Origin: Halopelagius inordinatus
GTDB lineage: Archaea; Halobacteriota; Halobacteria; Halobacteriales; Haloferacaceae
DNA: 64,000 nucleotides
Direction: 5' to 3'
Assembly: GCF_900113245.1 (NCBI RefSeq)
Contig: NZ_FOOQ01000001.1
Coordinates: 992,001 to 1,056,000, forward strand
The notes below the pieces were generated by a model. The model was not told the DNA's origin. It saw only the letters and a list, made by a program, of their open reading frames with translations, and did not search any database. A program made the position numbers and the translations under genes. This document shows positions 42,226 through 45,467 of this stretch, one piece after another; positions within the stretch are counted from its first letter, which is position 1, and each line of letters opens with the position of its first letter.

Positions 42226-43443
42226 TCATCCGAGGACACCGAACCCGAACTGCGGGAGGCCGAAGACGGCCGTCCACGTCAGGTGGATGGCGACGCCGAC
42301 GAACAGGGCGGGTATCGTCGTGTAGATGCTCGCGACCACGGCGGCCGTCTTGTCGATGGCGATGAGCGGAAACAGGGCGTCGCCGTCCTGACTGATGGCG
42401 TTGGCCACCAGCGCGGAGAAGGGGATGGCACCCTCGGCGTAGGCCGCAGAGAGGACGATCTGCGGACCGCACCCGGGGATGAGACCGAGGGCCGCACCCC
42501 CTATCGGGGCGAGAATCCCCGCGGCGGCGGCGACGGCGGCGATGTCGACGCCCGAGAAGACGAGAGCGTACTCGTAGAGGAGGTAGGCGGCGACGACCCA
42601 GACGGTGACGAACGACGTCTCCATCGCCGCGTGCGTCCCCGTCTCGGCGAGGCTCTCGAAGGTGTCGCGGCCCCCGCCGACGCGTCCGTGCCCGATGTAG
42701 TTTCGGCCGACGAAGTAGAGAAACGCCGACAGCGCCGTCCCGGCGACGCCGACGGCGGTGAAGACGCCGGCGTAAGAGAGACCGACCGCGAGCGGAACCT
42801 CCGGCGCGCCGCGAACCAAGTAGAGGACGCCCACGACGAGAGCGACGGCCGCCGAAAGCCACCACGCGCCGAGTGCGACGCGACTGACCCATCGTCCGAA
42901 CGCCGAGTCGCGCGCCGGTCCGTCGTCTGCGGCACACCCCTCCGCGTCCGCGTAGTGGTGGGCTTGGTTGCCCACCGCGGGCGCGGCCACACCACCGTCG
43001 GAGAGGGCCGGGCGGAGACTCGCCACCGCGGCGTCGACGCGCCCGACGCCCAGTCCGAACCGGTCTATCGCGTACCCGAAGCAGACGGCGGCGACGAGGG
43101 CGATGCCGTAGGCGTACAGCGCCGCCTCCGGAGCGAGTGCGAGCAGGACGAACGCCGAGTCGCCCGCGGTGGCGATGAGTGTCGCGACGACGGTGCCGAA
43201 CGAGACGGAACCGCGGACGTACAGCGGCATCATCACGATAGCGCCCCCGCACCCGGGCGTAAGTCCCATCAGCGCACCGACGAGGGGGCCGGCGCGGCGA
43301 TTCTCCTCTAACCGACGGACGAGGCGGCCGTCGGTCCGGTACTGCACGTAACTGAAGACGAGCACCGTCACCGCGACGAACGCGCTCACCTGCACGAAGC
43401 CGTCGCGGACGGACGCCAAGAAGATGTCGAGCAGTTCAGACAT
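42226..43443 (-). CDS. ArsP_2-type 10-TM heavy-metal exporter, putative manganese transporter
   Basis: A 405-residue membrane protein from ATG 43443 (a GTG at 43452 would add three residues). Two inverted repeats each carry the motif G-x-x-PGCG: GLTPGCGGAIVMMPLYVRG in the first half and GLIPGCGPQIVLSAAY in the second. These motifs define the ArsP_2/putative manganese transporter family. Five helices in each half flank a His/Asp-rich central cytosolic loop (about 155-185, with NQAHHYADAEGCAADDG), a possible metal-binding or regulatory site. A TTAGA-N4-TCTAA palindrome lies 73-86 bases upstream, consistent with metal-dependent control. Confidence 0.85.
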   Translation of the reverse strand: MSELLDIFLASVRDGFVQVSAFVAVTVLVFSYVQYRTDGRLVRRLEENRRAGPLVGALMGLTPGCGGAIVMMPLYVRGSVSFGTVVATLIATAGDSAFVLLALAPEAALYAYGIALVAAVCFGYAIDRFGLGVGRVDAAVASLRPALSDGGVAAPAVGNQAHHYADAEGCAADDGPARDSAFGRWVSRVALGAWWLSAAVALVVGVLYLVRGAPEVPLAVGLSYAGVFTAVGVAGTALSAFLYFVGRNYIGHGRVGGGRDTFESLAETGTHAAMETSFVTVWVVAAYLLYEYALVFSGVDIAAVAAAAGILAPIGGAALGLIPGCGPQIVLSAAYAEGAIPFSALVANAISQDGDALFPLIAIDKTAAVVASIYTTIPALFVGVAIHLTWTAVFGLPQFGFGVLG

Positions 43444-43515
43444 CCGAACCACTCCCCGTGCGGCACGGTTTTCGATGACGATGCAGAGATAGATTTTCCA
43501 TTGCTCACCTAAAGA

Positions 43516-43529
43516 TTAGACGCATCTAA
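43516..43529. promoter_or_regulatory. DtxR/MntR-like operator upstream of the metal exporter
   Basis: TTAGA-CGCA-TCTAA, a perfect five-base inverted repeat with four-base spacer, extended by flanking A/T and a nearby CCTAAA half-site (43508-43513). It lies 73-86 bases upstream of the exporter ATG. It shares the TTAG...CTAA character with the palindrome upstream of the ZIP gene. Position upstream of the core promoter would suit activation of an exporter at high metal. Confidence 0.55.
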
Positions 43530-43630
43530 AATAAATCTGTGTGTTCGGACCGACGGCGTCGTTCGAGGCGCAAAACTACCGGCAGAGAGCCGTACAGAGG
43601 AGTAAGACGCTATCTGGCCCGCCTGAATCG

Positions 43631-44107
43631 CTACTCGACCACGTCGGCGGACGTCGCGTCGGAGAGTCGGCGCAGTTTCGCCGGGTCGATGGGAAACATC
43701 GACGTCGGGGTCCCCGCGGCCGCCCAGACGGTGTCGTAGTCGGCCAACGAGGCGTCGAAGAGGACGCGGAGGTCGGTCTCGTGACAGAACGGGGGGACGC
43801 CGCCGATGGACCACCCGACGACGTCGCGTATCCGCCCGGGGTCCGCCATCGACACGTCTCCCGCCTCGACTCCGAGGTGAGTCGCGAGTTTCGCCTCACT
43901 CACCCGGTTCGCGCCACTCGTGACGACGACGACGAGTTCGCCGCCGCAGTCGAAGACGAGACTACTCGCTATCTGCCCGACGGAACAACCCACGGCGTCG
44001 GCGGCGTCCGCCGCGGTTTTCGTCCCCTCGGGGAACTCCGTTACCGTCACGTCGAAGCCGTATCTGTCCGCCGCCTCGCCGACGAACGTCTCCGCTCTCT
44101 GGTGCAT
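43631..44107 (-). CDS. YbaK/EbsC-family aminoacyl-tRNA deacylase-like protein
   Basis: A 158-residue protein from ATG 44107 (MHQRAETFVGEAADRYGFDV). The YbaK/ProX-type fold is seen in TEFPEGTKTAADAADAVGCSVGQIASSLVF, VVVVTSGANRVSEAKLATHLG and WSIGGVPPFCHET. Relatives remove mischarged amino acids from tRNA(Pro) or related tRNAs. It sits between the metal exporter and the ZIP transporter and is divergent from the latter; a role in metal biology is not indicated by its own sequence. Confidence 0.9.
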   Translation of the reverse strand: MHQRAETFVGEAADRYGFDVTVTEFPEGTKTAADAADAVGCSVGQIASSLVFDCGGELVVVVTSGANRVSEAKLATHLGVEAGDVSMADPGRIRDVVGWSIGGVPPFCHETDLRVLFDASLADYDTVWAAAGTPTSMFPIDPAKLRRLSDATSADVVE

Positions 44108-44179: not shown

Positions 44180-44195
44180 TTTAGGCGCGCCAAAA
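44180..44195. promoter_or_regulatory. DtxR/SirR-like operator upstream of the ZIP transporter
   Basis: TTTAGGCG-CGCCAAAA, a 16-base palindrome with a single mismatch (arms 44180-44187 and 44188-44195). It abuts a TATA-like GAAATATGA (44202-44210), with the ZIP ATG at 44244. TTTAGGC-type palindromes are typical of archaeal metal-dependent DtxR/SirR-family repressors. A bound dimer would occlude the TFB site and repress metal uptake. Confidence 0.6.
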
Positions 44196-44243
44196 ACATC
44201 AGAAATATGAAATGTATTTCAACGCGGGCGACGTACGTCCGGT

Positions 44244-45089
44244 ATGGTCGACATCGGAAGCTTCGCGTTCGTCTTCGTCGCCGGGTTGGTCACAGCGTTC
44301 GCGACGGGACTCGGGGCAGTTCCCTTCTTTTTCGTTCGCCACATCGGCGACCGGTGGAACGTCGTGCTCTGGGGCGTCGCGTCGGGAATCATGCTCTCGG
44401 CGTCCGTGTTCGGATTGGTGTTGGAAGCGCTCGGCGAGTACGTGCAGGTGTCTCTCGCGGGCGTCTCCGCCGACCCGATACCCGGGCGGACGCTCGTTCT
44501 GTTGAGTATCGGGCTGGTCGCGGGCGCGGTGCTCGTCTTCGTCGCGAACCACGTCATCGAGGTGACGGAGGTGCACCCGAAGCGGTACGAACAGGCGGAC
44601 TTCAAGAAACTGCTTCTCATCCTCGGCGTCTTGACCGTCCACTCGTTTCCCGAGGGCGTCGCCGTCGGCGTCGCGTTCGCCGACTTGGGCCTCGGCGGCG
44701 GCGTCGAACTGTTCGGCTTCGCCGTACCCGTCCTCGCCGTCTTCATGACCGTCGCAATCTCCATCCACAACGTCCCGGAGGGCGTCGCCATCTCGATTCC
44801 CCTTCGCGCGATGGGCGTTCCGAACTGGCGACTCGTCTGGTGGTCCGTCTTCTCCAGTCTCCCGCAACCCGTCGGCGCGGTCATCGCGTTCTACTTCGTC
44901 AACGTCGCCCGGGAATTTCTCCCCGCGGGGTTCGGGTTCGCCGCCGGCGCGATGGTGTTTCTCGTCCTCACCGAGTTCATCCCCGAGGCGGTCGCTCTCG
45001 GAGACGGACTCCCGAAGGGCGGCCGCCCGGAACTCGTCGCGGGACTCGTCGCCGGCGTCTCCGTGATGGTCCCGTTGCTGTTCGTCTGA
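44244..45089 (+). CDS. ZIP family metal transporter
   Basis: A 281-residue membrane protein with eight helices. The metal-binding signatures VHSFPEGVAVGVAF (helix 4) and ISIHNVPEGVAIS (helix 5) carry the His and Glu ligands of the binuclear site. A His/Glu-containing loop (NHVIEVTEVHPKRYEQADFKK) precedes helix 4. It belongs to the GufA/ZIP II-like group that imports Zn2+, Mn2+ or Fe2+. An upstream near-perfect palindrome suggests repression by a metalloregulator. Confidence 0.94.
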   Translation: MVDIGSFAFVFVAGLVTAFATGLGAVPFFFVRHIGDRWNVVLWGVASGIMLSASVFGLVLEALGEYVQVSLAGVSADPIPGRTLVLLSIGLVAGAVLVFVANHVIEVTEVHPKRYEQADFKKLLLILGVLTVHSFPEGVAVGVAFADLGLGGGVELFGFAVPVLAVFMTVAISIHNVPEGVAISIPLRAMGVPNWRLVWWSVFSSLPQPVGAVIAFYFVNVAREFLPAGFGFAAGAMVFLVLTEFIPEAVALGDGLPKGGRPELVAGLVAGVSVMVPLLFV

Positions 45090-45182: not shown

Positions 45183-45467
45183 TTAGTGACTGTGGCCCAT
45201 CGCCTCGGAGAGCGAGATGCCGAACCGGTCCTCGAAGATGCTCTCCATCTCGTCGTTGAGTTCCTCTAAGTCGGCCGCCGTGTCGCCTTCGCTGTGGTGG
45301 ACGACGACGTGTGACTGCTGTGCGAACGCCTGCACGACCAAGTCGCCGACGACGCTCGTCGGTTCCTCGCCCTGTTCTGCGAACACGTCGACGAGACCGT
45401 CCGGCAGTTCTATCGTCTCGACGTCGCCGTTCGGGCCTTCGATGGTGTAGAGTTCGGTTTCGACCAT
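45183..45467 (-). CDS. 94-residue haloarchaeal protein (DUF7545-like)
   Basis: A 94-residue acidic protein with a beta-hairpin N-terminus (ETELYTIEGPNGDVETIELPD) and helical remainder, ending EAMGHSH. FAQQSHVVVHHSEGDTAADLEELNDEMESIFEDRFG is a recognisable haloarchaeal pattern. The His-rich positions (HVVVHH and GHSH) might bind metal, which is speculative. No function is known to me. Confidence 0.78.
   Translation of the reverse strand: MVETELYTIEGPNGDVETIELPDGLVDVFAEQGEEPTSVVGDLVVQAFAQQSHVVVHHSEGDTAADLEELNDEMESIFEDRFGISLSEAMGHSH

Follow-up and report, generated by a model that had tools for sequence, protein, structure and literature searches.

What controls the ZIP-family metal transporter gene of this Halopelagius inordinatus locus, and does metal turn the gene on or off? 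The question is raised by a 16-base palindrome at 44180, a short distance ahead of the gene in the window analysed here (the whole stretch of 64,000 nucleotides). An earlier note had proposed that one metalloregulator acts on this palindrome and on a second site at 43516, in front of an exporter gene. We examined the palindrome, its counterparts in other haloarchaea and the regulators that could read it.

A DtxR-type box upstream of the ZIP core promoter

The palindrome, TTTAGGCGCGCCAAAA (44180-44195, + strand), matches at seven of its eight pairs (in the other, positions 4 and 13 are both A) and begins 64 bases upstream of the ATG at 44244. The gene that follows (44244-45089, + strand) encodes a ZIP-family metal transporter of 281 amino acids, recognised by a Pfam Zip match of 47.8 bits, above the cut-off, and by the motifs HSFPEG and HNVPEG; its closest relatives are the ZIP genes of Halogeometricum. 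The near-perfect palindrome before a ZIP gene is therefore as the earlier note described it. Its placement directly before the TATA element needs amending: the palindrome does lie upstream of a TATA-like stretch (44213-44219, + strand; placed by eye, with T-rich conserved columns about 20 bases past the box in 47 promoters), but 17 bases separate the two.

The palindrome is real, but palindromes of this length are common by chance: with at most one mismatched pair, 78 occur in the window, compared with 74 ± 12 in 20 Markov sequences. The AT-rich arms and the conservation are not common. In a window with a G+C content of about two thirds, this is the sole such palindrome with A or T in all eight outer positions, the expectation being 0.05 (one in 20 simulations). 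A longer palindrome pattern, TTTTGGCGNNCGCCAAAA, had no match within the window when up to three mismatches were allowed.

Positions 44181-44194 read TTAGG-CGCG-CCAAA and fit the TTAGG half-site dyad, with its 4-base spacer, of iron-type (TroR/FetR-like) operators, the second half of the box being CCAAAA rather than the symmetric CCTAAA. Judged by its sequence and by its kept position in the ZIP promoters of other haloarchaea, the feature is a conserved, asymmetric DtxR-type operator, TTTAGG-N4-CCAAAA, for which binding is predicted. It belongs to the TTAGG class, the class of box seen at iron genes in the H. inordinatus genome, lipoprotein-type iron-uptake genes among them.

Around the box, the ZIP core promoter (44208-44221) also forms an inverted repeat, TGAAAT-GT-ATTTCA; the corresponding segment reads TGATAA-TAC-TTATC in several other genera. 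Some lineages show, by eye, a further dyad, ATCA-N6-TGAT, between box and TATA.

Conservation of the box among haloarchaea

A TTTAGG-N4-CC(A/G)AAA box stands upstream of the TATA element in 62 of 138 ZIP upstream regions from several haloarchaeal families (counted over overlapping sets), mostly 62-90 bases ahead of the gene and between unconserved flanks. The pattern TTNGGN4CCNAA was found at -95 to -45 in 29 of 58 ZIP regions of the 60-genome set and in 33 of 80 of the named-locus set, two sets that partly overlap, leaving 29 and 47 regions, respectively, without it in that interval; the 58 regions take in the remote paralogues L074 and L075, as well as L070-L072 at about half identity, and the start offsets of L069 and L073 are rough. 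Sixty-eight boxes of this pattern lie within 200 bases of a ZIP gene, 64 of them at -95 to -45, four beyond -95 and none nearer than -45. Named Haloferax (Haloferacaceae), Haloarcula (Haloarculaceae) and Haladaptatus (Haladaptataceae) loci carry the ZIP box, and it was not found in the Halorubrum (0/23), Natrinema (0/4) and Natrialba (0/5) loci of the named-locus set.

Alignment of 47 non-redundant box-bearing ZIP promoters revealed little information in the columns outside the box and the core promoter. The box core is invariant in this alignment because the promoters were chosen by the box; at the positions free of that choice, T precedes the core in 43/47 promoters, A occupies the third column in 40/47 and A follows the core in 41/47. 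In Haloferax (L228-L233, L300), the ZIP promoters hold in addition a hybrid dyad, TTTTGG or TTTCGG with TCTAAA, at about -112, some 48 bases upstream of the ZIP box.

Across the 60 genomes, the strict 16-base patterns were clean against control. Strict CCRAAA boxes occur at 214 places in 54 genomes, the reversed-pattern control giving nine, and strict CCTAAA boxes at 437 places in all 60. Within the examined ZIP regions there are 17 CCRAAA and no CCTAAA boxes, compared with 197 (of the 214) and 437 elsewhere (Fisher p ~4e-9, ancestry ignored). A pattern constrained at the inner C/G and allowed one mismatch was found at 14 genome places and its reversed control at 15, and therefore raw counts of that pattern prove nothing.

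Box geometry at uptake, dpsA and ZIP promoters

The new point of this analysis is a difference in box geometry between uptake promoters on the one hand and ZIP and dpsA promoters on the other. In 22 uptake-type lipoprotein promoters, a set gathered via its boxes, 21 have a box at -18 to -22; in the remaining one it is at -39, and the start codon there is possibly misplaced. Thirteen of the 22 carry a pair of boxes, the distance being 36 bases in 12 cases and 28 in one. Upstream of dpsA, 38 of 70 regions (lower-similarity paralogues excluded) contain a box with at least nine of the 11 fixed bases; in 34 of the 38 it falls at -80 to -60, with 24 at -70 or -71, and no good box was found in the other 32 at this threshold. 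Only 1.9% of shuffled dpsA regions reach the box score, and 0.14% do so at -80 to -60. The base at position 13 also differs, being A or G in 32/34 ZIP boxes and 31/34 dpsA boxes compared with 8/35 boxes of uptake promoters, T occupying it in 2/34 ZIP and 27/35 uptake boxes.

ZIP and dpsA genes thus have in common a single asymmetric box, TTTAGG-N4-NC(A/G)AAA, found only upstream of TATA and at the same start distance, about -65 to -71. The 44180 box, at -64 and with CCAAAA, has this dpsA-like layout (a single box upstream of TATA, at about -60 to -80, with A/G at position 13). The dpsA boxes differ from those of ZIP in often having A at position 11 (10/34) and in their target, which is iron storage and not import. 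Start-codon distances are the firmer measure in these comparisons, since box-to-TATA distances from our crude TATA finder were scattered. Furthermore, four of the 30 CCRAAA loci examined have a ferredoxin gene alongside; here the box is at -84 or -86 and in opposite orientation. Upstream boxes also occur at a NifU-like gene and at flavin oxidoreductase genes in the dpsA neighbourhood; these three kinds of gene were named by eye rather than by a family search. Ordinary metal repression of the importer becomes doubtful when the box is seen to be placed as in dpsA, not as in iron-uptake genes. Like the site itself, its class and its conservation, this geometry is directly observed here.

Predicted response of the ZIP gene to iron

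The reading we prefer, which has about an even chance of being right, is that the box is an iron-type (TroR-like) DtxR operator from which the regulator activates the ZIP importer when iron is plentiful, as with dpsA. By this analogy, iron may well turn the importer on rather than off; the sign of regulation, like the identity of the regulator and the metal carried, is what we infer from the observed site. Activation by the metal-loaded regulator is predicted because the dpsA-like box layout and the published fall of DpsA and ferredoxin agree in sign. Halobacterium DpsA is lower under iron deficiency (PMC3600143), and PMC11349517 reports, for iron-starved Haloferax, ferredoxins down about 2-fold, of which the box-bearing ferredoxin may not be one, and five of eleven fhuD proteins up more than 4-fold.

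In order to account for the two geometries, we note that at uptake promoters the box covers the stretch from TATA to start, where a bound regulator would block transcription. At ZIP and dpsA promoters the single asymmetric box, about 20 bases upstream of TATA, leaves the core promoter clear, and a regulator bound there would help the transcription machinery assemble. Plentiful iron would then switch on the importer together with iron storage, and the importer might supply manganese or zinc during that storage. Rather more tentatively, and with somewhat less than an even chance, we propose that geometry sets the sign of iron control in haloarchaea: one DtxR-type regulator would repress from a symmetric box placed between TATA and the start codon and activate from a single asymmetric one upstream of TATA, with the ZIP gene on alongside DpsA, and alongside ferredoxin from a similar position, when iron is plentiful, bringing in manganese or zinc. 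If right, this would place a metal importer under control of opposite sign from the family expectation, would make the sign of control readable from DNA as a simple rule for haloarchaeal genes that iron turns on or off, and would provide a concrete case of a DtxR-type regulator as an archaeal activator.

Several points speak against iron activation. Many ZIP and dpsA regions are without the box, A/G at position 13 is not exclusive to them, the ferredoxin boxes are reversed and the presumed TroR is without the usual DtxR ligands; in addition, iucC goes down on iron starvation, with TroR and SirR amounts unchanged (PMC11349517).

Known systems resemble this arrangement in part. The 'ferR' signal of haloarchaeal iron regulons (Leyn and Rodionov 2015, cited through PMC11349517) shares with the ZIP box the TTTAGG half-site, the 4-base spacer and the class of the genome's own iron-uptake boxes; the ZIP box differs from this ferR/TroR signal in its CC(A/G)AAA half, in being a single box upstream of TATA and in having a ZIP importer as target. 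Deinococcus OxyR, which acts on dps and mntH (PMC2225504), is a precedent for one regulator governing a Dps ferritin and a manganese importer, but it belongs to an unrelated regulator family, responds to peroxide and represses both genes. The literature searched, with most subscription journals outside its scope, yielded no binding or expression experiment on this ZIP gene, and the novelty of the site is provisional and uncertain.

Candidate regulators of the ZIP box

Searching the genome with the Fe_dep_repr_C profile returned three genes, encoding a SirR-like protein with a FeoA domain, a short protein of 146 amino acids and one of 123 amino acids next to dpsA. TPPTVTSM is the recognition-helix sequence of 22 of 30 SirR-like proteins (30 genes sampled from 60 genomes), and SPASANEM that of 29 of 30 proteins of the 146-aa type; in the third type the helix is variable (SPAAATEM in 5/22), the 22 sequences aligned including at least one that is TroR-like. 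Compared with reference residues, the SirR-like type retains DtxR/MntR-like metal-site residues and the other types do not. The 146-aa protein (G000:C1:747662-748099; L002:1318-1755) has a C-terminal CPDC...C motif that is present in 29/30 relatives, and with this motif and without the usual DtxR ligands it may sense metal in an unusual way.

TroR is reportedly the primary iron regulator of Haloferax volcanii, as put forward by Martinez Pastor in 2024. We infer that the 146-aa type is TroR from its place in the genome: in G028 and G048, both Haloferax, about 40 kb separates it from the SirR-like gene, a spacing that fits the locus numbers HVO_0819 for SirR and HVO_0863 for TroR given in PMC11349517. 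Presence and absence single out no regulator, the SirR-like type occurring in 60/60 genomes, the TroR-like type strongly in 58/60 (with only weak matches in G017, 82% complete, and G050, 80% complete) and the third type patchily. The short, near-universal paralogue at G000:C1:747662, probably TroR, is the most likely regulator to read the ZIP box.

A different regulator on the ZIP box, responsive to zinc or manganese and either the SirR-like paralogue or a non-DtxR factor, is rather unlikely. Archaeal ZIP genes were reportedly assigned to zinc or manganese DtxR-type regulators by Leyn and Rodionov in 2015. The failure of the presence/absence pattern to point to any single regulator is consistent with such a factor, as is the difference at position 13 between ZIP boxes and symmetric iron boxes (Fisher p ~4e-9, ancestry ignored); however, a box of this asymmetric form and position also precedes the iron-storage gene dpsA, and the dyad found at SirR-like and exporter promoters is TTAGA..TCTAA. 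PMC6305349 also describes a Halobacterium ZIP gene, a possible orthologue of that in the window, as going down with copper and up with nickel and zinc, a response to these metals that does not look like simple zinc repression.

DtxR-type regulators are classically repressors of importers, and the same iron-type regulator on the same box could repress the ZIP gene from upstream when metal is plentiful. The upstream member of the tandem uptake boxes also precedes TATA, and ZIP proteins are able to carry iron (PMC6305349). Against this stand the positions, all 22 uptake promoters having a box at -39 or nearer and none of the 68 ZIP boxes coming nearer than -45, and the fact that DpsA, whose gene shares the place of the box and A/G at 13, declines under iron deficiency (PMC3600143). 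We consider repression from upstream rather improbable.

Two classes of site in one neighbourhood

The partner site at 43516 is real (TTAGACGCATCTAA). It lies, as TTTAGATGCGTCTAAT on the minus strand (43515-43530), in the promoter of a gene for an ArsP_2 putative 10-TM heavy-metal exporter (42226-43443, minus strand; Pfam ArsP_2, 363.9 bits), and a YbaK-like aminoacyl-tRNA editing gene (43631-44107, minus strand; Pfam tRNA_edit) sits between the two transporters. The 44180 box was also considered as an element of this divergent YbaK-like gene and the idea rejected: Haloferax ZIP genes keep the box at about -65, and no YbaK was found within their 3-kb flanks. The TTAGG class of the box and the gene coordinates agree with the earlier proposal of a metalloregulator-type operator, here DtxR-type, before the ZIP gene and beside an exporter gene with a DtxR-type site of its own.

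The two sites are of different class. Dyads of the 58 ZIP upstream regions are of the form TTAGG-N4-CC (34 GC, 1 GT, 0 AT), and those of 55 exporter and sirR promoters are mostly TTAGA-N4-TCTAA (36 AT, 3 AC and 2 GC among 41), a separation with a Fisher p of ~3e-18, ancestry ignored; the SirR-like operator form is thus absent from the 58 ZIP regions. The 80 named ZIP regions gave 34 GC, 8 GT, 2 AC and 0 AT, some of the GT being the hybrid upstream dyad of Haloferax. The exporter sample comprises 25 of 26 ArsP_2 loci, the fragment L100 being left out and L098 and L099 being remote, with G-class boxes; among SirR-like promoters, 16 of 30 match the dyad expression, the others being degenerate or without dyad. 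The pattern TTWGRNNNNYCWAA gave 17 matches compared with nine in its control, and an A-class match within a 953-aa reading frame (G000:C1:571712) is probably due to chance and was disregarded.

One regulator for both sites, as had been proposed, is unlikely because the site classes and the recognition helices differ; two paralogous DtxR-type regulators are likelier on sequence grounds, and the analysis would separate them by one half-site base. A single regulator draws some support from the equal spacing of the two dyads (TTTAGR-N4), from the extra TTTTGG..TCTAAA-type dyad of Haloferax ZIP promoters and from the closeness, by coordinates, of exporter and ZIP genes in a further six of the 60 genomes (G046, G025, G059, G018, G041, G053). 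Yet the classes stay separate across genomes, the exporter class also precedes the SirR-like gene itself, and G018 and G041 retain the divergent gene pair with no ZIP box found, so that we regard a shared regulator as highly improbable. Least credible of all is a functionless chance feature, to which the expected frequency of near-palindromes in the window and the many box-less ZIP orthologues might point, but which is at odds with a box kept in position between flat flanks in 47 non-redundant promoters.

SirR/MntR-like manganese sites share with the ZIP box a DtxR-type dyad of equal spacing and differ in their TTAGA half-site and in their location, just after TATA or by the start codon, as seen in SirR-like and ArsP_2 promoters. 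PMC3600143 describes Halobacterium SirR as a repressor of its own gene that depends on Mn(II). The place of the TTAGA-class boxes suits a repressor, an odd arrangement for exporters if that repressor depends on manganese. The SirR-like gene (G000:C1:704139-705553; L001:1312-2726), whose box class is also that of the ArsP_2 exporter, is directly followed by a gene for a GDT1-type cation/proton antiporter.

Downstream of the ZIP gene, a DUF7545 gene occupies 45183-45467 of the window, and such a gene is near ZIP in many of the searched loci too. ZupT-like proteins have HNxPEG as their first metal motif; in the ZIP family of the window this motif is HSxPEG, with S in 80/80 named orthologues.
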